IMG/VR virus record: IMGVR_UViG_3300032278_000058
Location: 1-33,446 of that record
Strand: one strand, 5' to 3'
DNA from: a virus
Length of the DNA: 33,446 nucleotides
Shown here: positions 1 to 32,521 of the stretch, one piece after another
How positions within the stretch are numbered: the first letter of the stretch is position 1
Layout: the number at the start of each line of letters is the position of its first letter
Notes under the pieces: model-generated
Told to the model about the DNA's origin: nothing
The model's input: the letters and a program-made list of their open reading frames with translations, nothing else
Database searches by the model: none
Translations under genes and position numbers: made by a program

Positions 1-3000
1 CACCAATACTTTCGTCTGCTTTAATAAGTGTGCTATATTTTCTAACTGTTAATTCTGTATTTAAACTATACTCTCTACCAGAGTGTTTTACAGTTACAGT
101 AGAAATTTTTCCTAAAGTATCAATTGTTATAATAAGTTCAGCACCTTGCCCGTTACCTACTTTACTAAATTGGTATGTTGGTGCTACTTTATAACCTCTA
201 CCAGGATCAGCAATATCAACTCTAGCTAATCTACCATTTTCCCAAATAGGTGTTAAGACTGCTTGTTTAACATTTGCAGTACCAACAAATACTATTTCTG
301 CATAGATATCAACAGCTTGATCAAATTTGCCAGAATTAATAGTTGGCATTGGATCAATTGTACCCAATTTATTAAGATCGTATTCATCAACAATAATATG
401 TTGTATAAGAACTCTATTAACTCTTTCAATAAGTTGTTTTACTGCTTCAAGTCTGTTTACAAACCAACTTTGTCGTGGTCTATTTAAAATACCGTATTTT
501 TCTTTTACACTTAACTCAGGATTCGGAACTGCTCTATAATTTGTGTCCCAACCAATTAAACTATCAAACCACTTACGTTCTACATCTGCTTTTGGCTTAC
601 TAGTTTTTAATCCTTCACTTATAAGTTGATATTCATTATGAATATTAGTATAAACAGGAATAGTCCAGTAGCGGAAATTAACTGCTGAATCATTAGCAGT
701 AAATAATGCATCACAATTATACAATGCAAATCTACTATCACTATACAATGCCGCATACTTATAACCTTGAGCTTTAGGATCTTCAATTAATTGTGCTACA
801 TCATATGCACTTGTTTTTCTCCAATCCATAGAAGGAATATGTTTTTTATTTTTAACCCAATAATAATACTGAGTTGAAAAACTTTGTGCTTGTTTGTTAT
901 AAATTTGTCTTGTTGATAATGTACTATCATCAGCAAACTTAGGTTGTCCACTAATTCCTTGTGCTAATCCTTCTTCTGTATCTGCTAATTCTGACCATTC
1001 AGATGGTTTAAGTGTTGTTTCAACCCATTCATAAATATCAATTGACGCTCCTTTAAATAACTTACCCCAAGTTGCTGTTTGATAAATTATACTTCCTTGA
1101 TAAGGATTATGATATTTTGCCGTACTTAAATCCCACCATATTTTTCCAACATAATTTTTGCCCCAGGCCGCGGATTCATCAACAACAGATATTGTTCCAC
1201 CTATTGTATATGTTGCTGGGTCATATAATGTTTTAAAAGCAATTTCTTCTTCGGCACTACCTGCAATTTTTCCTTGAACTGGGTCAATATAATCTATTTG
1301 GCTAGTAAGTACATTCTTTGAAGTATTATAAACAAATACACCTTTAAATTTTGATACATCAACTTGATCAAGTGGGTATCGTAATGTTTGCCATGACAAA
1401 ACATCTCTATTACGTCTAAAATCAATTATAGTTCCCTGATAATTGTCTCCAGGAGTAGTAGTTAATTCTGGCATTGAAACATAAACATGATTATCTGTAA
1501 ATAATAAATAATCACCGAAGCGTCTTGTTACAGGATTATTATAAACAAATTTTTCACTATAAAGTAATGTATCATTAAATCTTTGGAAAATAAGAACTTG
1601 TCCACTATCTTCATTTGAAGTTTTATACTGAGTAAGATTATTATCAAACGATGTAGGTAAAACTGTAGTATTTGCATCAAATGTTGTTGTTGATATAAGA
1701 TCACCACCACGTGATGAAACAGCTAAATTATCTTTATCAAAATCTAATGTTGCTCCGAATCTTTCTGCTACATCGTTTTCTGGACTATAAAGTGTTTGTG
1801 ACCATATGAAGCTACCCGCTACTTGCCTATACACATAAACAGCACCATTGTTAGTATCTATTTCATCTTGTAATGGGGCTCCAACTGCAACTATAGTTCC
1901 ATCATCTGAAACTGCAATAGCATTTCCAAACCCTATACCTGCTTTAGGTGTTACTATTACTTGACTAAATTCATAATGACCGTTGTTTATTCTGTATATA
2001 AGAACTTTAGGATCACTATCAGTAAACTCAGCTACAACAACTAAAATGTTTCCATCTTTATTAATTGTAAACGGAGTAGCAAAACCCGTTAATGTAGTAT
2101 GATCTACAATAGTTTCGTCGTCAACTGTTAACCCTAAATCATTAGGAACATATCCTACATAATCTATATGACTTGATAATTGTGTCCATAACGATGAATC
2201 AAATGCACCAGCTGGTAAATTAGTTTTACTTTGATAAAAATACTGTTGATGTAAAACAATATCATTTTCAAAATATGCTACAGTATCACTAAACACACCT
2301 TTATAATTTTTATCTTTGCCAACTGCATAATCATATGATATTCCATCAGCATCAGTACCATGATTATAAAAATATACCCTACCAGCAGTTCCAACTGTAC
2401 TACCATCATATTCTACGCCTGAACTTACATGAAGATAATGTAACTTACTATTTGTAGCAAATTCTAATTGCTTACCGAAGTATTTGAAACCAAAAGTATT
2501 ACTATCCTCTTCGGCCGCATACTCAGAAACATATCCATGATTTAACGAATACTCACCATTGGCTGTTTTATCATAAGTTAAAATTATTCCTTGGTTAACA
2601 TAAGCACTTGCCACACCTTCAGTATGGGCCTGAATATTAAATGTTTGTACCCAGTCTTTGTTTAATGGTGTTGGATAATTTGGTATTCTAGAAATTCCGC
2701 TAACTGTACTGCTAGAATAAAAATGTACTTCTAACTCGTTTTGAAAAGCCGGCGAAGTAACAGGTAACTGAGACGAATCCGTGTTTTTAATAACAACCAT
2801 TTTACCTGCAATCGATGAATCCATATCTGCATGATCTAATCTCCCTGATAAACGATTAACACCAGAACTAATAGCATCTTTAATACTAAGAGTACTACTA
2901 GCACTATTATTAAATCCGAAGCTAAATGTCCCTACCCTATCTTTTACATAAAGGCGGCACGTTAATAATTGTTCTTGTAAATACGTTACTTCGGCTGTAG

Positions 3001-6000
3001 CGCCTGTGGTGTCATCAATAATAATTTCACCTACTTGAGGAATATAAGGATTTCCTAAATTGTCAAAATTTGTAAATGTAACATCAATAAATCCACTCCA
3101 TAAGTCATATACAGCATGAGCTGAATTTACATATGAAAATGTTAAACCTAATGATGCAGGATCAAATACTGAGATAGGTGCAACACCTCCTCTAATAGTA
3201 TTAAGCCACATTGTAAAGTTATCTGTTACATTAAGAGTATCTGTAAAAACTTTTGCTCCTCTTATAAACCAAAGCTCACTTAAATTAGGCAATCCTTGTT
3301 TATCATAATAACTTAAATGACCTAAACGACCGCCTCTGGTAGGATCAAGAACTAAACTTAATGCACGAACATCATCCATTGTATTACCAAAGACAACAGG
3401 TGAACGTGATTCAGCTTGAGTAATAAAATCTTGTCCTATAAGATTAGGTATTGAAATCTGTTGAGCTGACGTAACTGTTGTAGTAAATGCTGGAATCCCA
3501 TCAATCTTCCACCAACCGCCAAATGTGTCTGCCGCTGAAGCTGGTCTAATTAATTCAAAGTCTCCACAACTTACTGCATTGTAGAAAAGTTCACCAGTAG
3601 GATCAAATGCACCACTAACATCTGTCATATAAATTATTGATTGACTAACATTTTCAATTCGAATATATGCTATTTCACCAACCGCAGTATCTGATGATAA
3701 TGAATCACCAACTGTTGGAATACGTATTAAATTATCAATGTACAATACTGCATCAATTTTATTTGCAATAACTTTCTGTCCTTCAAGTGCCGCAACACCT
3801 GGACCTGTATTCCCCCAAGGTAAAACACCATTTGGATAATTTTGTGAAAATTCGTTCCAATTAAGAACTACTTTATCACCATCTGTTGATCCTTCATATT
3901 GTGCAAGTGGGGCTCTAATTAATACGTGATCTGTAGAAACATCTATTCCATAGTCACCTCTTATAGCGTAAACTATAGTAGGGTATGAATTATTACCTAT
4001 ATCATAATTTGCTTCTTCTATAAACGATGTTGACCAAAAACTTGGAAACGTTAATGCACCGGTTGCCGCTGAGATTGGAAATTGTGCTTCCCAGGTTGTT
4101 TCTGAATACTTAACAATGTCTCCAGCAACATAAGGTAATCCTCCATCAAAGTCGCCTTTGAATTTAGTTTTTACATAACTGGCATTTGGAGCGCCAATAA
4201 CTAAATGATCTCCATTATCAGTTAATGCAATACTAGAACCAAATTTTCCTGGTCCTGTATAAAGTCCATTAGGTGCTGAAATTGTTTGTCTATGATAATA
4301 ATCTACATTATCTGCAACTCTATTAAAAACATAAACTTTTTCTTGCTCACTTGCTGATGCAATTAAAATAGTATTTCTTTCATCAGATGCAATAACTTTA
4401 CCAAATAAATGATCTTCCCCAGGTGCTAAATTAGAAATTAATTGGTGTGAACTATATGTTGGTTTATTTTGTAGTACGATCCACTTACCAGTATCATCAT
4501 CATCAACCCAAATTAATTCACCTACTTGTAATTCACTATTAATAATTCTAGTATTTGCATCTGCCATAGAAGCAACTCTAGCCGAAACAAATTTTGTAAT
4601 AAATCCTTGTTTTGTAGTATCAAAGTTTTCTGATAGTTCTACATCTGGAGTTTCACCATTTGCATAACAAATTATAGTATCTAATGATACACTTTTAACT
4701 TTAAAGAATTTTTCAATTGGTTCAGCTTCGTCCTGGCCGACATCAAGAATACCTATAATATCATTAGCTTCGTATCTTGCTTGTGTCTTAAGTTGTAATG
4801 TAGTTGTCCCAGCTGTAGTATCTGAACTTACTGCTATAACATTATCTGTTGTTCTAACATATTTGACAACATCCCAAGTTGTTCCTCGTAATCCTACCCA
4901 TACATAATCGCCAACATTTAAATCAGAAATTGTTGCATCTAAAATATCATCAAACTTTGCAACTGTTAATTTAACATCGTCTTCATTAACAAACCCTGCT
5001 GTCTGAATGTACTCAAGAAATGTTGAACGGTTAGGAAATGGTTTATGATTATAATTGTTAGGTTTAAGATAAACTTCAAATGGTCTTAGACGATAAATTA
5101 AATCAGTTTCTAGTCCTGACACAGTATCAACTAATTCTACTGGTTGCGGAGATAACTTAAATTTAGCTTCGTCTAATTTAAATTCTACTTCATCAAATCC
5201 ATCCGATGAACCATATTGTCCTAACTTAACAGCCCATTCTTCATAAAAGTCAATACTGTCTTTGTCTGCACTACTTAAAGCATCAAATAATTTTGTTAAA
5301 CTATTTTGTGTCCCTTTGTCTTGAATATATCCTTGATAAAACTTATACTGACTAACATCATCTTGAATAATATTTGCAAGATAGTCTCTCTTTTGATATC
5401 CAATAAGATGTTGTGCTATTCTTTGTTGTTCTGTATCGAAATTATCAGTATCTAAATCATAAAAATCTTTAAATTGTTTTGCTTTATAGTCTAGATTGGG
5501 GATTAATTTAGCTTCTGGTTTAGCTGTTAGTCTTTCCCACTTAGACGAATCAAAGTTTTCTGTACCAGGACTTTTTGTTATAGAAATATAATAAAATTCT
5601 TTATATTTTACTGTATCACCTAAAACATAATCTTGATAAGATTTCCATTCATTAATAATAGCATTATCATAAACGAATCCTGGAATATTTAAAGAGCCTT
5701 TCCAGTCATCAGTTCTATAACCTAAAACTTTAATTCGTTCTTGTCTATACCCTGGTTCTAAATCAAAAATAATATCATTAAAAACTGTATGGTTGTCAAT
5801 TAAACAAACGTGCTCTTTTTGTATTAAGGGTAGCTTAACAGCATATATACCATCAGCAGTATTTTGCGTAGTTATTTGAAATTCATTATCGTTACTTCTA
5901 TAAATTTTAGCAAATTCAGAATCTAATTTACGTCCGTCTGCTCTTAGAAGTGTATAGTCATGAAAATTATCAAAGATATTATCAGAAACATAATAATCTC

Positions 6001-9000
6001 TTTTAAATTTTAATCTATTACCAGCAGGACTTAAAGATATAACACTATCTTCACGCCAATTTTGTGTAGTCCAGAATAAAAATTCTTTAGCACTTAACTC
6101 CCAATTTTCAATTACATTAATTTCAGGATTAAAAAAGTTAAAATCAAATCCTTGTGTTTCTAACCACTTACCATAACCTAATAAAAAGTCAACAACTTCT
6201 TGAACAGTTGTTAATAAAGTACCATAAGCTAATTCTTTTGTGCTATTAATAATATTCGGAGAAAGATCAAACTGACGTCTAAAGAATGCTTCCCTACCTC
6301 CAGTAACTGGTAACTCAATTAATCTAGCAAAAAATTGTTGTTGAAATGTTGTTGAACTAGTATGAGCTTCTTTAACTCTATAATAATCATTATTAAATTG
6401 AACTGTTTGTCCAAGTACATATACTTGATTTTCTGTCCAGTCAAGAAAGGGATCAGTAACGCCGCCAATTTTTACAACAGGATCATCTGATAACTCACGA
6501 GCCGCAAAATATTTAAAATATGGATTAGTTTTATCATATCCTTTTATAACAAATCCTGCTGGTCTTTTTTCAATCATAACTCCGCTATAACTTACTAAAT
6601 CAACTACCGAACTTTTATTTAAAAATATCTTATAGTTTTCATCAGGAACAAAAACATTACCTTCATTAAATGGAGATCTACTGTCTAATACTAATTTAAA
6701 TTTGTCTTTATGAGTAAATCCTGCAACCTTAAACCCTATCTGATTTTTTACAGATTTTAATGCAGTTGTATAATCACTATACGTACCTAATGACTCTGAA
6801 TTAATATAATCACAAATATAATTAACTAATCCTGAAGTGTTAACTCTATCTTCATCAGTTATTACCATAGGAAAGATTAAATCTTTTAATCTAAGTCTTT
6901 TATCAGTTTCACTATAAATGATTTCTTTTGCTGGATTTCGAATTATTCGTGATCTATCAAATCCTAATCCCATAATTTTAGTTGGCTGATTAAGAATCCA
7001 ACTACAAATAAATGCGAATGGATATTCACTACTTCTGCGCCAGGCTGTTTCTGTTGGTGCTTCGTCCCCAAATACAAATTCTTTATTTGTTAAAACAAGA
7101 ACATAATTTTTAGCAAAGTTACTATCTAATGGACTTAATAAATTACCTTCACCATCAACTGGAATATGCTTTGTAATATCTTTTCTTGCATACGCTGTAA
7201 GATATTTTAATGCTTTACCAGGTTCTCTAACAATTCCATCTTCAATATCTTGCCATAAAATTTTATTTTCTCTAGTATATGGCGCTGGTCCGTAAACTGT
7301 TTTCCACCATGTCGGTTCAATAGTATAACCTAGAATTTCCCAAGGATGGGTATGCGGACGATCAGTATCAAAGGCTTCTTTATAAACACCTCTCCAATAC
7401 CCAGGTAATTGTTTACCACTTGGTGCCGTCATAGCACTATAATTAAATGTAAAACTATTTGACCTTACATAAAAATCATGATCTGTATAATCTATATTGC
7501 CAACATTTTCTAACCAAGCTACAAAGTCTGTAATTAATGCTTTATCTCTTGCCCATTTTGTAAATTTTGTATCTCTTGATTCACCGCCAATAAATTCATG
7601 TATATCTAAAATAGTTGAATCATACTCTGATTTTATATTGTTAAAAATTCTTTGTTCTAACTCTAACAGTAAGTCATCGCGAAAATCACCAAAGCAAACA
7701 AATATGTTACCGTCGTGTCCTTGAATAACTTCTGTTGGTACTTGGTAAGTGTTATCAATATATTTTATGGGTTTATATTTTGGATATAAACCTAATTTAG
7801 TAGGAGTTGGTGGAATATAACTTCCATCAGTAGTTTCATATTCATAAATTTCAATAATATCATCAACGACTTTAGTTGCTGTAATTGTTACAAAGCCTGG
7901 ATGGTCTGTTTCAAACTGATAATCTATACCATGATATAATTGTACTTTATTTTTATAAATGTAAACTGCTTTATCTGATAAAGCACTTAAATTAAAATCA
8001 CTTGACAATGCAAAAAATTGTGTATCTTTATCTTTTACAGTATGACTTGTTTTAGTATATGTTCCTATACCCATCATATCGCTAAAGAAAAACGGCATAT
8101 TATTAGTTTTATCTTTAACTACTGCCTGCATTACTTTTTCAAAATGAGGTACTGTCTCTCCTGTAAATCCTACAGTATTTGCTTTTTGAAGAAATACTCT
8201 TCTAAATTTTCCATACTCATTACTAGCATATCTAATTGCTTTAATAATATTTGCATTAGTATCAGTAATATGATATAAAGCAAGATCTACTTGTCCGCTA
8301 TGTTGTACAAAGCGACGACCATATGGAGCAAGATTTCCTATATCTCTTAAATTATTCATACCAGGCATTGAACCTAAAAACTCATCATTATATTCACTCA
8401 ATGAATGAACATGATCGTTAACTTCACCTAATGTAAAAGTAAGAACATTATCATTTAATGGATTTCGTTCTAAGTTATGCGGTATTTCATAATACCCGTT
8501 TTCATTTTTCTTTGTAGCACTATTAGATAGAATTTTAACTACATCATCTTTTACTAACTCTTTAATAAACGTAACATAAGCTACACCATTAATTCTATTA
8601 ATTGCAAAATCTGTTATATTAAATTTTCTTATGTTATTAACATACACTCTTAACCATAAATCATTTAAGTCACCACTACGATCATAAACATCAACAGCAA
8701 AACTATTTGTTTGATTAGAAACAACATATTGTCTTACCACGTGTTGTCTACTATTTTTAATAGCTTTAATCCATCCTGACGTATATGTAAAAGTACTAAT
8801 ATCACTATACTCTTTTAATAATGTTACATCAGTATTTCCTTTTACTTCTGCATTATTTTGTTGATAGGTATATGTACCACCTAATAAATTAAAATCAAAT
8901 AAAATATCTCCTGAATTTTCTAATGCTCTATAACTTAACGAAAATCCTAACTCTGGATCTTTAACTTCACCAGCACCTACTTTATAACTAAAAAGTTTAT

Positions 9001-10750
9001 TTCCAACAAATGTTGATGATGGGTAATAAGTTATGTCCGATAATGAATAACCACTCTTATCAAATAAATCAAATAAAGGCGGTTGGTTTGCATCAATTTT
9101 ATCTTGTCCAGCTTTCCACTCGGTACCATTATAATACCACATCTTACCTTTATACTCATCACCGTTTCTAACTAATACTGTTTCGTTTTCAATTGGGGTT
9201 GTATCTGTTTCTTCAATAAGACTAATTTGTCTTATAAGATTATGTGTAATAAATTTTACTTTAAAAATTTTTCCTGATACTCTACTATCAGGATCAGCAG
9301 TAAACAATACACGCATATTGTCAACAATATCTACACCATCAACATTATACCCTATTGCACCTTCAACATTTGAAAACACATCATTAGTAAATGTATCTAA
9401 TAAATCAATATCAGCTTTAGCACTAGTACCAAAATTATGTAATTTTAATCCTGCACTAAATTCAATAATAGGACGTTTTGCTCTATAATCTTGATCTAGT
9501 TCTGGAGGTGTACCTGTAAGTGTTGCAGACAGTTCAATAACTTCTCTATGAAACCATCTGTTATACCTTGCCCAAGGATTTCTACTTTTAGATGCTTTAT
9601 TAACTACAAGATAATCTTTTACTCCTGCAAAACTATTAGCATTACTATATGGTAACCTATCAAATCCTACGCTGTCAAACAAAACAGGTTTATCTGTTGC
9701 ATACGTAGCCGGAATTTCTAAATCTTTTTCATTAATTAAAGTAATTTCAGTTCCAACACCTTCAATATACCATTCACCAGTAGCATATTTTGTAGGAGTT
9801 ACTGTTCCTTGGAAATAAACCTTTAAACCATTTGAAAAAGCTATTCCACCAGTACTTGTATAAGTTTTTTTACCTAAAATTTCAGCTTCTACATCTATTT
9901 CTGTATTATCAACTGCATCTGCAATTTGTATTAACCCACTTGCATTAATATCATTTCCATTTACATAAAATAATGTATCAGGTGCATTATCAGGAATTGT
10001 CCAAGTAATAGTTCCAACATCAACTGTTTGAGTACTATCATCTAATCCTGTAGTATACAATAAACTAGGATCTAATGAACGTGCAGTTCTAAATGTTAAT
10101 GGCATTCCTACTGCATCAATTTCAAAGATGTATGTTTGTCCTCTAAATAATTTTAAAGTTGGATTAGATGTTAATCCGTCAGGTGTGAAAATATAACTAT
10201 TGTTGTCTATATTATCTTTTTTAGTTACTTTATAAGTACTTTCAACATCTTTAGCATTACCGGCAATGCCTATTCCTATTGGACCATTGGGTAACCAATA
10301 ATATTCTCGAAAATTTGTAAACTTATCCCATTCAATATGCGGGTTCCAAGCATAATATTCTTGACTATTAAGTTTACTATGATCATCTACAGTACCGCCA
10401 AACGCTCTTATTTGATTAATATAATCATTGTAGTCTTTATAAAAAGTAACATTGTTTAAATTATCTTTTACTACTACCGCTGGGTCTAATTGATAACTTT
10501 CTCTATCAGAATTATGTTCAGAAATATAAGTATCATCGGCTTTGTATGCTTTAGCAGTACGTCGGCCAAAGTATCCACTTAACTTTTCTGCCACACCGGG
10601 TTGAATTAACTGATCTAAAGTTGCATTAAGAAACTTTTTATTAGTTATACTACGAAAATATCTAGGAAGTAATTCCGCACTAGGTCTTCGTGGCGGTTTT
10701 ACACCACCAGTTGGTAACGGATATTCATGTTGGTCATCGGAAAAAGCCAT
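1..10750 (-). CDS. Giant baseplate-associated structural protein (partial, at least 3583 aa)
   Basis: The frame starts at the ATG at 10750, which overlaps the gp6 stop (TAATG), and runs to the window edge without a stop, so the C terminus is missing. The N terminus (SAELLPRYFRS, then LDQLIQPGVAEKL, then YYWLPNGP near residue 150) resembles, from memory, the start of very large virion proteins of marine T4-like myoviruses. Further modules can be read. A cupredoxin-like segment lies near residues 194-277. Four short modules resembling chitin-binding CBM5/12 domains lie near 1437, 1698, 2203 and 2815 (pattern YVLGDTVKY followed by W-x-x-L). FG-GAP-like propeller blades lie near 2110-2190 and 2940-3095 (for example FGNAIAVSDDG). 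In T4 the gene after gp6 is the wedge protein gp7; this one occupies that place but I see no gp7 similarity. The inferred role is a baseplate-rim or receptor-contact protein. The existence of the gene is secure; the function is inference. Confidence 0.85.
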   Translation of the reverse strand, partial: MAFSDDQHEYPLPTGGVKPPRRPSAELLPRYFRSITNKKFLNATLDQLIQPGVAEKLSGYFGRRTAKAYKADDTYISEHNSDRESYQLDPAVVVKDNLNNVTFYKDYNDYINQIRAFGGTVDDHSKLNSQEYYAWNPHIEWDKFTNFREYYWLPNGPIGIGIAGNAKDVESTYKVTKKDNIDNNSYIFTPDGLTSNPTLKLFRGQTYIFEIDAVGMPLTFRTARSLDPSLLYTTGLDDSTQTVDVGTITWTIPDNAPDTLFYVNGNDINASGLIQIADAVDNTEIDVEAEILGKKTYTSTGGIAFSNGLKVYFQGTVTPTKYATGEWYIEGVGTEITLINEKDLEIPATYATDKPVLFDSVGFDRLPYSNANSFAGVKDYLVVNKASKSRNPWARYNRWFHREVIELSATLTGTPPELDQDYRAKRPIIEFSAGLKLHNFGTSAKADIDLLDTFTNDVFSNVEGAIGYNVDGVDIVDNMRVLFTADPDSRVSGKIFKVKFITHNLIRQISLIEETDTTPIENETVLVRNGDEYKGKMWYYNGTEWKAGQDKIDANQPPLFDLFDKSGYSLSDITYYPSSTFVGNKLFSYKVGAGEVKDPELGFSLSYRALENSGDILFDFNLLGGTYTYQQNNAEVKGNTDVTLLKEYSDISTFTYTSGWIKAIKNSRQHVVRQYVVSNQTNSFAVDVYDRSGDLNDLWLRVYVNNIRKFNITDFAINRINGVAYVTFIKELVKDDVVKILSNSATKKNENGYYEIPHNLERNPLNDNVLTFTLGEVNDHVHSLSEYNDEFLGSMPGMNNLRDIGNLAPYGRRFVQHSGQVDLALYHITDTNANIIKAIRYASNEYGKFRRVFLQKANTVGFTGETVPHFEKVMQAVVKDKTNNMPFFFSDMMGIGTYTKTSHTVKDKDTQFFALSSDFNLSALSDKAVYIYKNKVQLYHGIDYQFETDHPGFVTITATKVVDDIIEIYEYETTDGSYIPPTPTKLGLYPKYKPIKYIDNTYQVPTEVIQGHDGNIFVCFGDFRDDLLLELEQRIFNNIKSEYDSTILDIHEFIGGESRDTKFTKWARDKALITDFVAWLENVGNIDYTDHDFYVRSNSFTFNYSAMTAPSGKQLPGYWRGVYKEAFDTDRPHTHPWEILGYTIEPTWWKTVYGPAPYTRENKILWQDIEDGIVREPGKALKYLTAYARKDITKHIPVDGEGNLLSPLDSNFAKNYVLVLTNKEFVFGDEAPTETAWRRSSEYPFAFICSWILNQPTKIMGLGFDRSRIIRNPAKEIIYSETDKRLRLKDLIFPMVITDEDRVNTSGLVNYICDYINSESLGTYSDYTTALKSVKNQIGFKVAGFTHKDKFKLVLDSRSPFNEGNVFVPDENYKIFLNKSSVVDLVSYSGVMIEKRPAGFVIKGYDKTNPYFKYFAARELSDDPVVKIGGVTDPFLDWTENQVYVLGQTVQFNNDYYRVKEAHTSSTTFQQQFFARLIELPVTGGREAFFRRQFDLSPNIINSTKELAYGTLLTTVQEVVDFLLGYGKWLETQGFDFNFFNPEINVIENWELSAKEFLFWTTQNWREDSVISLSPAGNRLKFKRDYYVSDNIFDNFHDYTLLRADGRKLDSEFAKIYRSNDNEFQITTQNTADGIYAVKLPLIQKEHVCLIDNHTVFNDIIFDLEPGYRQERIKVLGYRTDDWKGSLNIPGFVYDNAIINEWKSYQDYVLGDTVKYKEFYYISITKSPGTENFDSSKWERLTAKPEAKLIPNLDYKAKQFKDFYDLDTDNFDTEQQRIAQHLIGYQKRDYLANIIQDDVSQYKFYQGYIQDKGTQNSLTKLFDALSSADKDSIDFYEEWAVKLGQYGSSDGFDEVEFKLDEAKFKLSPQPVELVDTVSGLETDLIYRLRPFEVYLKPNNYNHKPFPNRSTFLEYIQTAGFVNEDDVKLTVAKFDDILDATISDLNVGDYVWVGLRGTTWDVVKYVRTTDNVIAVSSDTTAGTTTLQLKTQARYEANDIIGILDVGQDEAEPIEKFFKVKSVSLDTIICYANGETPDVELSENFDTTKQGFITKFVSARVASMADANTRIINSELQVGELIWVDDDDTGKWIVLQNKPTYSSHQLISNLAPGEDHLFGKVIASDERNTILIASASEQEKVYVFNRVADNVDYYHRQTISAPNGLYTGPGKFGSSIALTDNGDHLVIGAPNASYVKTKFKGDFDGGLPYVAGDIVKYSETTWEAQFPISAATGALTFPSFWSTSFIEEANYDIGNNSYPTIVYAIRGDYGIDVSTDHVLIRAPLAQYEGSTDGDKVVLNWNEFSQNYPNGVLPWGNTGPGVAALEGQKVIANKIDAVLYIDNLIRIPTVGDSLSSDTAVGEIAYIRIENVSQSIIYMTDVSGAFDPTGELFYNAVSCGDFELIRPASAADTFGGWWKIDGIPAFTTTVTSAQQISIPNLIGQDFITQAESRSPVVFGNTMDDVRALSLVLDPTRGGRLGHLSYYDKQGLPNLSELWFIRGAKVFTDTLNVTDNFTMWLNTIRGGVAPISVFDPASLGLTFSYVNSAHAVYDLWSGFIDVTFTNFDNLGNPYIPQVGEIIIDDTTGATAEVTYLQEQLLTCRLYVKDRVGTFSFGFNNSASSTLSIKDAISSGVNRLSGRLDHADMDSSIAGKMVVIKNTDSSQLPVTSPAFQNELEVHFYSSSTVSGISRIPNYPTPLNKDWVQTFNIQAHTEGVASAYVNQGIILTYDKTANGEYSLNHGYVSEYAAEEDSNTFGFKYFGKQLEFATNSKLHYLHVSSGVEYDGSTVGTAGRVYFYNHGTDADGISYDYAVGKDKNYKGVFSDTVAYFENDIVLHQQYFYQSKTNLPAGAFDSSLWTQLSSHIDYVGYVPNDLGLTVDDETIVDHTTLTGFATPFTINKDGNILVVVAEFTDSDPKVLIYRINNGHYEFSQVIVTPKAGIGFGNAIAVSDDGTIVAVGAPLQDEIDTNNGAVYVYRQVAGSFIWSQTLYSPENDVAERFGATLDFDKDNLAVSSRGGDLISTTTFDANTTVLPTSFDNNLTQYKTSNEDSGQVLIFQRFNDTLLYSEKFVYNNPVTRRFGDYLLFTDNHVYVSMPELTTTPGDNYQGTIIDFRRNRDVLSWQTLRYPLDQVDVSKFKGVFVYNTSKNVLTSQIDYIDPVQGKIAGSAEEEIAFKTLYDPATYTIGGTISVVDESAAWGKNYVGKIWWDLSTAKYHNPYQGSIIYQTATWGKLFKGASIDIYEWVETTLKPSEWSELADTEEGLAQGISGQPKFADDSTLSTRQIYNKQAQSFSTQYYYWVKNKKHIPSMDWRKTSAYDVAQLIEDPKAQGYKYAALYSDSRFALYNCDALFTANDSAVNFRYWTIPVYTNIHNEYQLISEGLKTSKPKADVERKWFDSLIGWDTNYRAVPNPELSVKEKYGILNRPRQSWFVNRLEAVKQLIERVNRVLIQHIIVDEYDLNKLGTIDPMPTINSGKFDQAVDIYAEIVFVGTANVKQAVLTPIWENGRLARVDIADPGRGYKVAPTYQFSKVGNGQGAELIITIDTLGKISTVTVKHSGREYSLNTELTVRKYSTLIKADESIG
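9920..10170 (-). other. Degenerate cupredoxin-like module in the giant protein
   Basis: Residues about 194-277 read PTLKLFRGQTYIFEIDA, then GMPLTF, then a TWTIPDNAPDTLFYVNGND segment and GLIQIAD. This order matches the cupredoxin-like beta-sandwich often found in marine phage structural proteins, where a GHPF motif and a YYxCxxH motif carry the metal ligands. Here the His is Met (GMPL) and the Cys/His motif is replaced by YVNGND, so copper binding looks lost. The fold assignment is from pattern memory. Confidence 0.45.
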
Positions 10751-24266: not shown

Positions 24267-24689
24267 ATGGAGTGGACTTACCTAGGAAAAATCATTAAAG
24301 AACTACCGAAGGATTGTGTTGGCTTTGTATACCTTATTACAAATACAACCAACAAACGCAAATATGTCGGTAAAAAACTAGCTAGATTCAGAAAGACACG
24401 GCCACCCCTCAAAGGTAAGATAAACAAAAGAAGAAGTACAGTAGAAAGTGACTGGAGAGATTATTGGGGATCCAGTGACTGGTTGTTAGAAGATGTTAAT
24501 AAGTTAGGCAAAAACAAATTCACACGAGAAATACTACATTACTGTCCAAGTAAAGGCGTAACAAGTTATCTAGAAGCGAGAGAACAGTTTGAACGCAGAG
24601 TTCTAGAGACTGACGAATACTACAACGGCATTATAAACGTACGAGTAGGCGGATCAAAGGTCCTTAGAGAAGCTCTTAAAGGCAAATAG
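24267..24689 (+). CDS. GIY-YIG-type endonuclease-like protein
   Basis: This 140-aa protein contains the two GIY-YIG strands as G19-F-V-Y22 and Y33-V-G35, separated by a short turn (TNTTNKRK). A downstream Arg-rich helix and E-containing helix (YLEAREQFE, about residues 100-108) could supply the catalytic Arg and Glu. It lacks an obvious DNA-binding C-terminal domain, so it may be a small phage nuclease rather than a homing enzyme. It starts 18 bases after the preceding stop on the same strand and is the last gene before the structured RNA region. Confidence 0.65.
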   Translation: MEWTYLGKIIKELPKDCVGFVYLITNTTNKRKYVGKKLARFRKTRPPLKGKINKRRSTVESDWRDYWGSSDWLLEDVNKLGKNKFTREILHYCPSKGVTSYLEAREQFERRVLETDEYYNGIINVRVGGSKVLREALKGK

Positions 24690-25943: not shown

Positions 25944-28505
25944 ATGAAACTGCAAGAAGTTGTTGCTTACAATCTAAAAACCCAACACATATTAACTGAA
26001 GGATGGGATACACTTTCAGAAAGCCAACGTATCTTTATGGGCAAGGCTGAACGTGAGCTATGGCCATTAATGGAACAGCTTACAAAAGTGTTTGAAGCAG
26101 AACTTACTAGCGATCAAATCCAATCAATATTTAAAGGCGCTGAAACTCATGCAATGGATTCAGGTCAAAATAAAACTGCTATGGGAAAAGCAGGTGATGC
26201 CTTAAAAGTTCCTGGTAAAGTTATGAAAGCCGTTAACGATAAAATTAACGAGCTTGGTAAGATGGCACAAAAGACTGGTCCTGTTCAAAATTTAGATAAA
26301 AAGTTTGAAGAATTAAAAAAGAAAATTGGATCTAGCGATGGAAAAATTGTTCAAGGTGTTAAAGCAGTTAGTGACTGGGCAAAAGAAAATCCCGGCAAGG
26401 CAAGTTTAGCAGTAGCTATATTAACAGCCGCGGCGGCATTTGCTAGTGGTCCAGGCGGTGGTGCGGCAGTAGGTTTCTTATTACGTTCAAGTAAAGATTT
26501 ATTACAAGGTGAAAAACTTTCAACAGCGGCAGGTAAAGCAGTTAAAACAGCGGCAATTGGTGCTCTTGCAGGTATGGCGTTTGATGCAATCGGCGATGCG
26601 GTTGTTGATAATATTGAAGCAGATGGTTATGATGCAATTAATTCAACAGCTGAGTCTTTAAAAAATGCGGCTGTAACTGATGCTGTAGCAGATGTATCAG
26701 CTGAATATAGTGATGTACTACCTCAACTATCAGACGGTTATAATCAACTGAATATATCAGGAAATATTAATGCTTACAATTACAATTTTAATGTTATACT
26801 CACTGGTGATCAACAAGGAAATTATGAAGCATTATCAAATGCAGTTCATCAAGCGGCAAATCAAAGTGGTTCATTTTCACCTGAAGCACTTAAATCAACT
26901 GCCGAATTACATGACTTCTTAGCATCTGTTCAAGCAAGTCCAGATCAAAGTACAATGAGAGAGGCAATAGCCGCATTAGAACACGCAAAAGCAACTGACA
27001 TAACTCATGAACAATTAGTAGAACTAGGTTTAGAAACAGATAATTTAGAAGCATTCGTTGATAGTGCCACAGAAAAGATACCAGGGGCGGCCGCAGTAAT
27101 TCAAGGTGCAACACAACAAGCAAACGATTTTAATAAAGAAGCAGTTAAGGCTGGACAACCTAAGAAAGGTGAGAACTATGAACTTCCTTTGGAAGACCAA
27201 GCAGAAGCATATAAACGAGACCTACACAATAGATTAGCAGAAGTTGGTCCTGATAACGCATGGATGGACGATCCTAAGTATGCAGATCCTAGCCAACAAA
27301 AAGGCGCACAGATGGATTTAGGATTAGACGATCCTAATACACTTGGTGCAAAAGCAAAAAGAGGATTAGGTGCGGCAGGTAAATGGGCTAAAGGTGTAGC
27401 AGGTAAGGCAGTAGCAGGTGCTAAACAAGGCATGAAAGATGTAGGAAATAAAGTTACTGCTAACAAACTTAACAAGGATTGGCAAAAAGCTGGAGAACCG
27501 ACAGACGCAGGATCTATTGTTAATATATTATCTAGTGCAGGATTAAGCAACGATGATATAACAGCAATTAGTACTGGTGCTAGTGTTGAATTACCAGTTA
27601 GTGCAGAACCAGAACCAGAAGCAGATGCTGGTGCTGAAACAGGAACTGAAAAAGATCCAGAAGGTGTCAAACCTAATCAAGGAACAGATAATAAAATTGA
27701 AAATGGAACTACAGCAGATGGGTCTGATGGTAAAGAATATACTCAGTCAGGTGGAGAATGGGTTAGCGGCGGAAAAAAAGCAACACCTGAAATAGAAAAA
27801 GAATTAGATGCACAAGTGGCAATACCTACTGATGACGAAACAGTTCCATCAGATGGTGGCGGAGATGCTACTGATCAAGAACCAGCAGATGATACAAATG
27901 TTCCAGGACGTGAATATGATGCTGATGATGAAGCAGAAGCAGAACAAGGTACTGATGCAGAACTAGGACCAGAAGCTGAACCAGAAGCTGAACCAGAAGC
28001 AGGTACAGAACCAGAAGCAGGTGCAGAACCAGAAGCAGGTGCAGAACCAGAAGCAGGTGCAGACACTACAGGTGCAGAACCAGAAGCACCAACAGATGCA
28101 CCAGCAGATACTACAACAGATGCACCAGCAGATACTACAACAGATGCACCAGCAGATACTACAGCTAGTGCTGATCCAGAAAAAGGATCAAGAACCTTTT
28201 CCACTTTGGATAAGGACTCTACAGATACTACAGCTGGTACTGGTGCTGAAACACCTACAGATACAACTGTAAGTGATTTAGCAAACGCAATTACTACAGC
28301 AGGTGTTGGTGATGTTGTTAAAGCAGAACTAGAAACAGGTGTTAGTGGCGGTGGCGGAACAGAACCTACATTAGCTCAGATCAGAGCCGGAACGCTTGAT
28401 GCAGAATTTATACCAAACTTGGCAAAGGAAATTAAAAAGGCAGGTGTTGGTGAAGTAGTTAAACAAGAATTAACATCTGAACAAACAGCAGACATGATGA
28501 CTTAA
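25944..28505 (+). CDS. Large repeat-containing probable virion protein
   Basis: This 853-aa protein of unknown family begins MKLQEVVAYNLKTQHILTEG, again with an L-x-E site near the N terminus. Residues about 153-180 (SLAVAILTAAAAFASGPGGG, then AAVGFLL) and 199-222 are Gly/Ala-rich hydrophobic segments that could span or insert into a membrane. Residues about 545-770 are disordered, acidic and low-complexity, with Glu-Pro-Glu-Ala and Pro-Ala-Asp-Thr-Thr repeats. Two related short segments close the protein (DLANAITTAGVGDVVKAELE and NLAKEIKKAGVGEVVKQEL). A ribosome-binding site (AGGATAAGCA) precedes the ATG. Its stop overlaps, on the opposite strand, the stop of the gp26 frameshift extension (CTTAA). 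A packaged or virion-surface role is inference. Confidence 0.7.
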   Translation: MKLQEVVAYNLKTQHILTEGWDTLSESQRIFMGKAERELWPLMEQLTKVFEAELTSDQIQSIFKGAETHAMDSGQNKTAMGKAGDALKVPGKVMKAVNDKINELGKMAQKTGPVQNLDKKFEELKKKIGSSDGKIVQGVKAVSDWAKENPGKASLAVAILTAAAAFASGPGGGAAVGFLLRSSKDLLQGEKLSTAAGKAVKTAAIGALAGMAFDAIGDAVVDNIEADGYDAINSTAESLKNAAVTDAVADVSAEYSDVLPQLSDGYNQLNISGNINAYNYNFNVILTGDQQGNYEALSNAVHQAANQSGSFSPEALKSTAELHDFLASVQASPDQSTMREAIAALEHAKATDITHEQLVELGLETDNLEAFVDSATEKIPGAAAVIQGATQQANDFNKEAVKAGQPKKGENYELPLEDQAEAYKRDLHNRLAEVGPDNAWMDDPKYADPSQQKGAQMDLGLDDPNTLGAKAKRGLGAAGKWAKGVAGKAVAGAKQGMKDVGNKVTANKLNKDWQKAGEPTDAGSIVNILSSAGLSNDDITAISTGASVELPVSAEPEPEADAGAETGTEKDPEGVKPNQGTDNKIENGTTADGSDGKEYTQSGGEWVSGGKKATPEIEKELDAQVAIPTDDETVPSDGGGDATDQEPADDTNVPGREYDADDEAEAEQGTDAELGPEAEPEAEPEAGTEPEAGAEPEAGAEPEAGADTTGAEPEAPTDAPADTTTDAPADTTTDAPADTTASADPEKGSRTFSTLDKDSTDTTAGTGAETPTDTTVSDLANAITTAGVGDVVKAELETGVSGGGGTEPTLAQIRAGTLDAEFIPNLAKEIKKAGVGEVVKQELTSEQTADMMT
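27969..28087 (+). repeat. CCAGAAGC-based tandem coding repeat
   Basis: CCAGAAGC recurs at 27969, 27981, 27993, 28011, 28029, 28047 and 28080, with periods of 12 then 18 bases, encoding E-P-E-A and E-P-E-A-G-A units. The near-identity of codons points to recent slippage expansion. Confidence 0.85.
28098..28163 (+). repeat. 24-base tandem coding repeat
   Basis: Two perfect 24-base copies (28098-28121 and 28122-28145) and a third of 18 bases (28146-28163), beginning GCACCAGCAGATACTACA, encode A-P-A-D-T-T-T-D. This is an in-gene repeat, not a CRISPR array, because no spacers are present. Confidence 0.9.
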
Positions 28506-28735
28506 AAGAACGGATGACCCGTCTTTTTAGTAGTTTCCATATTACTTTTAACTACTTTTTGAAACCCTTCTCTATCTTCGTAAGATGTACAATACATTTC
28601 ATCAAGAGTTACCCCTCCACGCATATACCAACAAAGTTGGGCAAGGTCATATTTAAAGTTTTTAACCTCGTTATCTAAGTCTTCAACTTCTTTTAGGATT
28701 TCACCAAGAGGTAGTGTTGAAATCCTTATGCGAAA
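28502..28735 (-). CDS. -1 frame extension of gp26 (GT-like / gp51-like domain)
   Basis: This open frame has 77 codons and no ATG, GTG or TTG start near its beginning. It encodes ISTLPLGEILKEVEDLDNE, then LCWYMRGGVTLDEMY, then EDREGFQKVVKSNMETTKKT and the end GHPFF. The sequence looks like a genuine helical domain and resembles, from memory, the short protein labelled gp51 in some marine T4-like phages. Entry by a -1 shift at 28735-28741 would give a 388-aa fusion. In lambda-type phages the equivalent gpGT recruits tail subunits to the tape measure. An unusual ATA or ATT start is the alternative. Confidence 0.75.
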   Translation of the reverse strand, partial: FRIRISTLPLGEILKEVEDLDNEVKNFKYDLAQLCWYMRGGVTLDEMYCTSYEDREGFQKVVKSNMETTKKTGHPFF

Positions 28736-28741
28736 AAATTT
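28695..28741 (-). promoter_or_regulatory. Programmed -1 ribosomal frameshift signal
   Basis: The minus strand reads A AAT TTT TTC in the gp26 frame (28741-28732), which contains two overlapping X-XXY-YYZ heptamers (A AAT TTT and T TTT TTC). The gp26 stop follows two codons later. After 8 bases (or 5 for the second heptamer) comes a perfect 9-bp stem, AGGATTTCA (28726-28718) with TGAAATCCT (28703-28695), and a 14-base loop. Slippage by -1 enters exactly the open frame of the extension. Confidence 0.8.
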
Positions 28742-29667
28742 GAATGATCAAACGATACAGGAATTTCATAATTTGCTGGAGCACCTGCTTTTAATTCTTC
28801 GTCAGTTGCTTGTACCTTAACAGGTTCCATATTAAACTGCTCTCTTTGTTTTTCAACATGGTCTACAATTGCTTTATAAAACTGTTTATCAGCTTTTGCA
28901 ATAAATTCAGCAATATGGTTAGGGTCTACAACAATTTGATCATCAACTTGAATTTGCATAATTGAGTGTGTTACAACATCAATAGTGATACCAGTTAATT
29001 TTACAAAAGACTCATTAAACTTTACAAGTTTTGTTTCGTCATCCATTCCTGCATCATTAACTGTTTGAAATAGTCTTTGCTCTTCAAATGTTTTAATTGC
29101 AGTTCTTGTAAACTCTCTATACGTTTGTGGACGTATAGTAATTTTCATTCCTTCATTATTAATTACATTATGAAAGTTAGCAGATCCAAACTTATCAAGT
29201 ACCATTCTTAAATCTAATTCAAAGTCTTTTTCTATTGGTGGTTTAGTATTAGGTACTTTCGTATTTAATGTTAACTTTTCACCGTAAGTTGCTATTCTAA
29301 TACCAACTAAAACTGTATCTAAATCAATAGTTGGCATTCCCCAAGCATCTTTAATAGCTGGTACACAACTTTGAATAACATCTACAGTTGCCTGACCATT
29401 TAATAATGCATCAGGTGTTTTAAATACAAGTTCATCTCTCGCCGTCATAGCAAAGACTGGTAATTCATCATTCTCGGACATATCTATTGCCCCATCAGGA
29501 TACCAGTTACCTTTACTAGGTAATTTTATATAAACCTTAGGTTGCCTAAAGTATTTTTCCAATGGATTAGGCGTACCCATTGTAGGTTGTTTTCCATCAG
29601 GAGAAGGCGGTTTTATCGTCTGCGGTCCTAAAGGAATGCTTCCCGGCATTGTTAATTGTTCAGCCAT
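28726..29667 (-). CDS. 26: gp26-like baseplate hub / tail assembly protein
   Basis: This 313-aa protein resembles the T4_baseplate (gp26) family of marine T4-like phages. The conserved region starts at residues 36-53 (LEKYFRQPKVYIKLPSKG), followed by ELPVFAMTARDELVFKTPDA and LNGQATVDVIQSCVPAIKDA. The C-terminal half is helical. T4 gp26 (208 aa) is needed for hub assembly. The start at 29667 follows GGAG with six-base spacing. The last codons, AAT TTT TTC GCA TAA, form a slippery site; a -1 shift there would extend the protein by 77 residues. It is divergent from the tape-measure candidate. Confidence 0.8.
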   Translation of the reverse strand: MAEQLTMPGSIPLGPQTIKPPSPDGKQPTMGTPNPLEKYFRQPKVYIKLPSKGNWYPDGAIDMSENDELPVFAMTARDELVFKTPDALLNGQATVDVIQSCVPAIKDAWGMPTIDLDTVLVGIRIATYGEKLTLNTKVPNTKPPIEKDFELDLRMVLDKFGSANFHNVINNEGMKITIRPQTYREFTRTAIKTFEEQRLFQTVNDAGMDDETKLVKFNESFVKLTGITIDVVTHSIMQIQVDDQIVVDPNHIAEFIAKADKQFYKAIVDHVEKQREQFNMEPVKVQATDEELKAGAPANYEIPVSFDHSNFFA

Positions 29668-29767: not shown

Positions 29768-32521
29768 ATGCCTCAAGTAACAATACGTCACGAAGGCGAT
29801 GTCTCCTATAGTGATGCGGCCTCAGAAGCTACTCTTGAGAAGCTATTAGCTAAAATGGGTGGTAAGGGCGGTGGCGGAGCCCAATCATTATACAATGACG
29901 CCCAAAAGAAGGGTGCGGCCGAGCTCAAAAAGCTATCTAAAAAGCAAAAAGAACACTCAGAACAAGTAGGCGCAGACACCGATGCAACAAAAGACCATAC
30001 AAAAGTTACAGAAAAAAGTACCGGCGCTTTAAAAAAATTCTGGAATGCCGCTAAAGGAGGGTTCGGTGGTGTTACTAGTGCGATTGGTGGTACAATTGGA
30101 GGTTTATTAGAAGGCCAAACTAACCTAGCTAATTATTCATCAAGAATTACAGGATTAATAGGAGAAATTCCTGTTGTTGGAATGCTTGGTCCTCCTATAC
30201 AAGCACTTATAAGCACTATTGACAAAAACATTGATTCTACTAGACAACTAAACCAAGTTGGTGGTGACTTAGGTGAAGGTTTATTTGGTGCACAATTGGC
30301 CGCGGCAGAGGCAAGAATGAGTTTAGAGTCATTCACTGCTTTAATGGGCGACCAATCACAAAACCTTTCAGCATCATTTGGTGGTGCAACTACAGGTATG
30401 TTACAATTTAGTTCTTTAATGAAAGGTGTAAAAACTATGGACAAACAGTTTGCCGCTTTAGGTTATACTGTTGATGAACAAGCAGAATTTACTGCTGAAT
30501 ATATTGAATTACAAAGATCACAAGGTTTATTTTCTGCACGACAAGAAAGAAAAAATATTAAAGGTGCTCAAGATTACCTATTACAATTAGACCAGTTAAC
30601 AAAAATTACTGGTCTGTCAAGAAAAGAAGCGGCGGCGGCTTTAAAAAAACAAGCTGATGATAAACGTTTAACAGCAATTTTACATAACATGGATGAAGGT
30701 ACTAAAGCACAACTTCAAGCCGCACTAGCTCAAGTCGAAGGTTTAAGTCCTGAGATGGGCGATGCTATGAAAGAAATGGTTGCTACAGGTGGTGTACCGA
30801 TTAGTGATATGGGTAAATCAATGATGCTATTGAATCCTAAATTAGGTGAAATGGCTAAAGGATTAAAAGATGGAACTGTAGACCAGGCGGACTTTGCAGA
30901 CGAAATTAAACGTACTAAAGCAATGGCCATTGAAAGAATGAAAACTGAAGGCGATATGATGAGTGCCGCGGCGGCTTTAGGGAATCCTATTTATGATGCT
31001 ATTTTTGCCTTTGCAAAGGTTGGAGAGGTTGGTGGTAAATTAACTGAAGCTCAAAAGGCACAAGCGGAAGCAATGAAAGACCCAGCAAAACAAGTAATGA
31101 ACTTCCAACAAGTTATTGTTGATTTACGTAACACTATTATGAAACAATTAATTGAATCAAAGGTTTTTGATAAAGTTGTAGCGGCGATTGGTACAGTAGT
31201 TGATTGGTTTGGCAGTGACGCAGGCATGAAGAAAATTGAAGAAATTGTTAAATCAGTTACCGATGGTATATCTGGCTTCTTGGAAACAATGTCAAATTTA
31301 GACTATGCCGCACTATGGGAAACCTACGTTAAAGTACCTCTTGAAAATCTAAAAGGATTAGTGCCTGATTGGATTAAAAATATGATCTTTGGTAAAGAAG
31401 AAAATGCAGAAGTAGAAGAATCAAAAGCCAAAGTTAAAGAACTTCAAACATTAGTAGCCGAAGCTAAAGCGGCAGGTAATAATTTTGTAACATACGCAGA
31501 TGGAACAAAAGTAGCACTAGCAGATGTTGAAAAAGAAATTGCGGCAACAAAGAAAAAAATTGAAAAAGATGAAGCTGGTGGCGGAGGTTGGTTTGCAACA
31601 TTAATTGATAACATTGGTCTTTTAGGAGCTATAGCAGGAACAACTTTAGCTGTAGGTGGCCTAGCTTACGCGGCAGTTCTTGCATTTTCATTGTTATTAA
31701 AACTGTTCGGAACAGGTCCAACGGCGCTTGGAGCGGCGGTTCTTGTAGGAATATTTGTTGGTACTGGCGCGGCAATTGCCTTGGCAGGTAAAGGAATTGA
31801 TCTCGCAGGTGAAGGCGTCCAAAAAGTTGCTGATGCATTAAAAAACATGAGCGAAATTAAAGATGTTGCTAACTTAAAAGAAATTTCTGGAATAATGGGA
31901 TCTATGGCAGGCGCATTGGCGAAATTTGCTGTAGGTGGTGTTATTGCTAAATTAATGGGCGAAGGCACATTAGAAAAATTAGCAGGTTCCCTTAAAGCCT
32001 TTGAAGATGTTAATGCTAGTAAACTTGCTCAAGTTGGTCCAGGAATTGCGGCACTATATGAAGGTACAAGTAAATTTACTGGTGAAGGTGCTTGGCAAGG
32101 ATTTAGTAAATGGGTTGGTAGTTTATTTGGCGGCAGTTCAAATGACTTTGAAAAAATGGCCCAAGGTATTAAGCATTTCGAAGGCATTGACGGAACCAAA
32201 TTAGCTAGTTTGGGTTCAGGGTTAAGTGGAATAGCAGAATTCATTGCGGCAATAAGCGCCGAAACCGACCTTAAAAAACAAGTAAAGGCTATCGAAGACC
32301 TAGTTGATGTAATGAAGGATTATCGAAAACAATATGATAAAATGAGCGGCGATATGCAATCCAGTTTTAATATGGCTGTAAGTAACTCCGGAAAAGGCAC
32401 TATAGAAGCCCTTAATGAGTTAAATACTGTAATAAAACAATTAGTTGATGAACAACGAACTAGTAATGAGATAGGTAAAAAGATTGTAGCATCAGTTAAT
32501 GATGCAGGAACAATAGGATAA
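29768..32521 (+). CDS. Probable tail tape-measure protein
   Basis: This 917-aa protein has the features of tape measures: an Ala/Lys/Gln-rich, mostly helical N-terminal two thirds (for example DAQKKGAAELKKLSKKQKEH), an early Gly-rich stretch (FGGVTSAIGGTIGGLLEGQ), and a strongly hydrophobic block at about residues 607-674 (LLGAIAGTTLAVGGLAYAAV, LGAAVLVGIFVGTGAAIALA) suited to membrane insertion. A helical tail (ELNTVIKQLVDEQRTSNE) closes it. T4 gp29 does this job at 590 aa; this is longer, and I see no direct similarity. Its neighbour is the gp26 frameshift gene, as chaperones neighbour tape measures elsewhere. AGGAA precedes the ATG. Portal gp20 follows after three bases. Confidence 0.6.
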   Translation: MPQVTIRHEGDVSYSDAASEATLEKLLAKMGGKGGGGAQSLYNDAQKKGAAELKKLSKKQKEHSEQVGADTDATKDHTKVTEKSTGALKKFWNAAKGGFGGVTSAIGGTIGGLLEGQTNLANYSSRITGLIGEIPVVGMLGPPIQALISTIDKNIDSTRQLNQVGGDLGEGLFGAQLAAAEARMSLESFTALMGDQSQNLSASFGGATTGMLQFSSLMKGVKTMDKQFAALGYTVDEQAEFTAEYIELQRSQGLFSARQERKNIKGAQDYLLQLDQLTKITGLSRKEAAAALKKQADDKRLTAILHNMDEGTKAQLQAALAQVEGLSPEMGDAMKEMVATGGVPISDMGKSMMLLNPKLGEMAKGLKDGTVDQADFADEIKRTKAMAIERMKTEGDMMSAAAALGNPIYDAIFAFAKVGEVGGKLTEAQKAQAEAMKDPAKQVMNFQQVIVDLRNTIMKQLIESKVFDKVVAAIGTVVDWFGSDAGMKKIEEIVKSVTDGISGFLETMSNLDYAALWETYVKVPLENLKGLVPDWIKNMIFGKEENAEVEESKAKVKELQTLVAEAKAAGNNFVTYADGTKVALADVEKEIAATKKKIEKDEAGGGGWFATLIDNIGLLGAIAGTTLAVGGLAYAAVLAFSLLLKLFGTGPTALGAAVLVGIFVGTGAAIALAGKGIDLAGEGVQKVADALKNMSEIKDVANLKEISGIMGSMAGALAKFAVGGVIAKLMGEGTLEKLAGSLKAFEDVNASKLAQVGPGIAALYEGTSKFTGEGAWQGFSKWVGSLFGGSSNDFEKMAQGIKHFEGIDGTKLASLGSGLSGIAEFIAAISAETDLKKQVKAIEDLVDVMKDYRKQYDKMSGDMQSSFNMAVSNSGKGTIEALNELNTVIKQLVDEQRTSNEIGKKIVASVNDAGTIG

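Follow-up and report, generated by a model that had tools for sequence, protein, structure and literature searches.

We propose that a gp26-like gene of the virus analysed here encodes both a short and a long tail assembly chaperone, the latter through programmed -1 ribosomal frameshifting, and we assign this reading, drawn from sequence comparison, a probability of about 0.93. The window, that is, the whole stretch of DNA under analysis, is the 33.4-kb virus record IMGVR_UViG_3300032278_000058. A slip site and its phase, the coding character of the -1 frame, a selected stem and the homology of the resulting extension to T4 gp51 are established by sequence, and the frameshift signal is almost certainly real. 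Most ribosomes would stop at the zero-frame TAA to give a 313-aa short form, while a minority would slip back one base on T_TTT_TTC, aided by the stem 5 nt downstream, to give a product of ~388 aa that consists of the first 312 residues and a 76-residue C-terminal domain. Lambda G/GT suggests how the two products would act, the short form as a coat on the tape measure protein and the long form in the recruitment of tail tube subunits. We infer the slippage and its efficiency, as well as the chaperone action and binding to the tape measure. T4 would obtain the same short and long products from two separate paralogous genes, those of gp26 and gp51.

Layout of the gp26-like gene and its neighbours

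The gp26-like gene lies on the minus strand (28726..29667), and its 313-aa zero-frame product is the proposed short tail assembly chaperone form (TAC-N). It matches Pfam family PF12322 (T4_baseplate; E 8.7e-10, 39.1 bits against a curated cut-off of 24.5) and PHROG family phrog_150 (baseplate hub; E 5.9e-12). The zero-frame protein terminates in ...SNFFA*, specified by the codons TCA AAT TTT TTC GCA TAA. The slippery heptamer T_TTT_TTC, read directly from the sequence (28732..28738, minus strand), is in the zero-frame phase needed for simultaneous slippage, and the zero-frame stop TAA (28726..28728, minus strand) comes two codons after the TTC of the slip site; the slippery run in the right phase (28738-28732) and the stop two codons on are thus both present, as the original prediction had it. 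Two in-phase heptamers, AAATTTT and TTTTTTC, are found within AAATTTTTTCGCATAAGGATTTCA, the second being the conserved one. AAATTTT was considered as the main slip site and, although in phase, was dropped because it is conserved in only part of the clade.

Counted from the zero-frame stop, the -1 frame opens at -19 nt and runs to a stop at 28504-28502. Read after slippage, it gives the extension FFRIRISTLPLGEILK...GHPFF (28502..28738, minus strand), the proposed TAC-C domain, which comprises 78 codons including the slip-site FF and is followed by the stop. The first ATG of this frame is ~41 codons in, and there is no start codon near its beginning. An 853-aa ORF on the plus strand (25944-28505) meets the extension tail to tail, the two stops overlapping, and carries tandem repeats with 18-bp and 24-bp units at 27930-28165 (+).

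The divergent neighbour on the other side of the gp26-like gene encodes a 917-aa protein (29768..32521, plus strand) that is plausibly the tape measure, judging from its composition, its position and the portal gene next door. The protein is rich in A, G, K and L, low in Pro and marked by long hydrophobic stretches, and its position is the same as that of the structural protein of RaK2/121Q. It had been taken for a likely tape measure in the original prediction; composition and hydrophobic stretches agree with this, but the family searches gave a weak match to phrog_14121 (E 0.003) and no informative family match that settles its identity, and we grade the assignment as plausible only. Elsewhere in the window, one ORF of at least 3583 aa (2-10750, minus strand) runs off the left end beside a baseplate wedge gene and is probably a giant structural gene, and a 140-aa ORF (24267-24689, plus strand) may be homing endonuclease-like because it matches three homing endonuclease PHROGs together with a PHROG labelled NAD synthetase.

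Kinship with T4 gp26 and gp51

PF12322 contains both T4 gp26 and T4 gp51, which are paralogues. In T4 gp51 the PF12322 match covers residues 1-201 and the protein continues beyond it; a profile of the cyanophage extensions aligns to residues 200-245 (i-E 2e-5), the homology of the extension beginning where the PF12322 match of gp51 ends. Profiles that include the window's clade match the gp51 C-terminus of T4, RB43, Aeromonas 31 and Acinetobacter phages, and the combined extension profile reaches whole-protein E-values of ~1e-5 to 1e-3 against gp51 proteins, with no unrelated match among 194 decoy ORFs. Judged from these profile matches, the extension and the C-terminal domain of gp51 are homologous, which bears out the link between the two that had been suggested earlier.

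A structure model of the short form built from 5 sequences had a pLDDT of 57, and one built from 55 sequences a pLDDT of 83. In BFVD, the strong matches of the 55-sequence model were to predicted baseplate hub assembly proteins of the T4-like type (E 3.9e-23), and the match of the short form to the annotated tail assembly chaperone of Escherichia phage K1H was weak (Foldseek E 0.086); sequence and fold searches of the PDB returned nothing useful and no chaperone fold match for the short form. The gp26 fold model also matches several proteins of ~450-690 aa (E 1e-6 to 1e-3) from jumbo phages, among them Erwinia Special G and phiEaH2 and Ralstonia RSF1 and RP12, and on the modelled fold these proteins may be unrecognised tail assembly chaperones.

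The gp26/gp51 label itself raises the alternative that the frameshifting is real but its products are parts of the baseplate hub and not tape measure chaperones, which we regard as unlikely. In T4, gp26 has been described as part of the hub, and gp51 as essential yet absent from the particle (PMC3004832); the same paper, however, tabulates gp26 and gp51 as hub assembly chaperones. The making of short and long forms by -1 frameshifting is, moreover, a hallmark of tail assembly chaperones, and T4-like tail assembly chaperones with a short/long organisation were identified by Vladimirov, Gautam & Davidson 2022 (Virology 566:9-15), according to the passages citing that work in PMC10885494 and PMC12846349.

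Conservation of the slip site, the -1 frame and the stem

Nucleotide searches with the junction gave no match among annotated phages, and protein searches were therefore used. The gp26-like protein retrieved 61 phage records by tblastn, jumbo phages predominating; the extension alone retrieved Phosso and Atu_ph07 (E 2e-6 to 5e-6), and the 121Q extension as query retrieved ~45 records, most of them overlapping the end of gp26. The T6 heptamer stands in the same phase in 10/10 genomes first inspected, where the -1 frame encodes a similar domain of 60-80 residues, and the same arrangement is seen in one cyanophage, two Rhizobium phages, Aeromonas phiAS5, Stenotrophomonas CM1 and KVP40-like Vibrio phages. 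The heptamer is likewise found in all 85 viral contigs from the first scans and in 79/79 additional relatives from a further scan, an alignment of 16 sequences having been too diverse for use in scanning. An in-phase TTTTTT[CTG] occurs at the same place in 184 of 187 related loci, a survey that includes some near-identical copies, and is spelled TTTTTTC in 181 of them, TTTTTTT in 2 and TTTTTTG in 1. The octamer TTTTTTCG has zero entropy across 62 non-redundant close relatives, in which the flanks vary; from the genes' own codon usage, T_TTT_TTC would be expected at ~6% of FF sites in the window's clade. By this measure the in-phase slippery heptamer is beyond chance, and heptamer and phase, to whose conservation the original prediction had looked, are kept among relatives.

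The -1 frame shows the codon-position pattern typical of coding sequence (62 non-redundant close relatives), and its pN/pS in pairwise comparisons is 0.23, the other two frames giving 1.7 and 1.1; by these measures it is under protein-level purifying selection. The -1 ORF had been described beforehand as protein-like, 77 codons long and devoid of an ordinary start, which agrees with this value. No conserved -1-frame start codon was found among the 62 relatives, in which starts are scattered and 46 lack an ATG within the first 20 codons. The overlapping -1 ORF is accordingly a conserved domain without a conserved start of its own.

The putative stimulatory stem begins 5 nt after the heptamer with the 5' arm AGGATTTCA (28718..28726, minus strand), which pairs with the 3' arm TGAAATCCT (28695..28703, minus strand). 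In the window 9/9 pairs form, with an RNA MFE of -11.3 kcal/mol (z -3.0), so that the perfect 9-bp stem announced 5-8 bases downstream is indeed there. The mean number of pairs formed is 7.23 of 9, versus 5.51 +/- 0.14 (sd) after synonymous recoding of the -1 frame, and sequences with 8 or more pairs number 29, where 3.9 would be expected and the most seen in any of 1000 trials was 10, an excess that, though large, is not readable as a probability because the sequences are related. The pair count falls to 2.7-4.3 when the 3' arm is shifted by 1-3 bases, and several pairs show changes on both sides, e.g. GC/AT at 14-43 and 15-42 and CG/AT/TA at 18-39. Since pairing exceeds the synonymous expectation and both sides of these pairs have changed, the stem pairing is, on this comparison, selected, and the covariation that the original prediction had looked to is present. 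Within the window's clade the stem stands out clearly; it is weak or shifted in some members, e.g. L023 and L161, and therefore not universally required, and in a few a good stem is absent or the partner appears to lie further downstream. In one subgroup (L163, L166, L174, L179, L181, L182) the predicted partner of the 5' arm GGATCTTA lies ~20 nt further downstream and is GTTAAGGTC or a similar sequence instead of ATCCT.

These features bear on a second alternative, in which the downstream ORF is a small gene in its own right, its translation coupled to that of gp26 through re-initiation past the gp26 stop, with no fusion product. Annotators do list this ORF as a separate hypothetical protein or as a 'baseplate hub assembly catalyst', cyanophages have a -1-frame ATG soon after the stop, and in Cygsa01 and Vibrio K444, which have no canonical heptamer, an ATG overlaps the gp26 stop. 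We nevertheless hold re-initiation to be very improbable: the first -1-frame ATG of the window comes only ~41 codons in and the clade shares no conserved start, T4 gp51 shows that the C-terminal domain works when fused to the PF12322 domain, and the invariant octamer and the stem would be left unexplained. An ATG-started separate gene, or an ORF retained after loss of the slippery site, either of which had been named as telling against a fusion, is found in no close relative, nor in the RaK2/121Q/CBB/PA5oct/Atu_ph07-like jumbo phages, the cyanophages, the KVP40-like phages or phiAS5; the heptamer is lacking in 3 of the 187 loci, those of the distant genomes Cygsa01, Vibrio K444 and Kuttervirus Se_AO1 (L017 3572-4482, L192 2402-3405 and L191 2510-3500), which keep the small downstream ORF, in Se_AO1 without an obvious start. 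It is hardly credible that an error of assembly or sequencing, or decay of the gene, accounts for the frameshift, for although the heptamer lies within a T run, where indels are common, the same phase recurs in many phages with isolate genomes as well as in independent metagenome contigs, a conservation that rules out assembly error, and the extension is under purifying selection.

Known chaperone systems and the single-gene state

Vladimirov and colleagues reportedly named T4 genes 26 and 51 TAC-N and TAC-NC, and frameshifting is said in the same work to be kept in several T4-like groups. The window gene belongs to the same family as this T4-like pair and has the same C-terminal domain; T4 has two separate genes, whereas one gene in the window would do both by frameshifting, as its sequence indicates. 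For lambda G/GT, Xu and colleagues in 2004 reportedly described a short form and a longer -1 frameshift form, with the slippery heptamer just before the stop. The window gene shares with lambda the short and the longer -1 form, the heptamer just before the stop and, if its 917-aa neighbour is the tape measure, a place near that gene; it differs in its slip site (TTTTTTC, against GGGAAAG in lambda) and in its large neighbour, which is divergent in the window and downstream in lambda, and no sequence homology to lambda G or T was found. The conserved in-phase heptamer and the homology of the extension to gp51 support the original suggestion that gp26 and its extension are the T4-family counterpart of G/GT.

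In phage Adele and the Vandenendeviridae/Andersonviridae, a -1 frameshift takes place at the poly-T motif GTTTTT at the end of TAC-N, and the second ORF of the chaperone is routinely annotated as a separate hypothetical (PMC12846349); the window gene shares the poly-T -1 frameshift and differs in phage families and motif context. The original prediction knew of no such device in the T4 gp26/gp51 genes, but it had already been published by Vladimirov et al. 2022, to judge from the citing statements in PMC10885494 and PMC12846349, the latter of which cites that paper for poly-T -1 frameshift signals in T4-like TAC-N genes. The poly-T frameshift of T4-like chaperones is thus already known, and the shared sequence features strongly support the jumbo-phage and marine clade as new members; our literature search found no paper joining 'tail assembly chaperone', 'jumbo phage' and 'frameshift'. 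Added here are the evidence of a selected stem and the wider survey.

Genome-wide, one PF12322 copy is present in every heptamer genome where the model scores, and SCTP-2, which falls below the profile threshold, has one copy by BLAST. T4, RB43, Aeromonas 31 and an Acinetobacter phage have two copies, and a usable heptamer is absent from gp26 in all 4 of these genomes; T4 gp26 retains FF, spelled TTC TTT. Since one copy goes with the heptamer and two copies go without it, the single frameshifted gene and the short-plus-long gene pair appear to be alternatives. PMC10885494 says likewise, with reference to Vladimirov et al. 2022, that one short and one pre-fused long copy are present in some T4-like phages. 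We lean towards the view that the single frameshifted chaperone gene is the common state across the T4 superfamily and has been replaced more than once, either through a duplication that left one short and one pre-fused long gene (gp26/gp51 in T4, RB43, Aeromonas 31 and Acinetobacter phages) or by a route in which the canonical slip site was lost and the C-terminal domain survived as a small ORF, separate or decoded in some unconventional way (Cygsa01-like and Ackermannviridae-like phages). In many annotated genomes of jumbo phages and cyanophages the second half of the chaperone is probably mislabelled as a separate hypothetical gene, and frameshifting, as in 121Q, and gene duplication, as in T4, would provide a natural comparison of two ways to set the ratio of short to long form.
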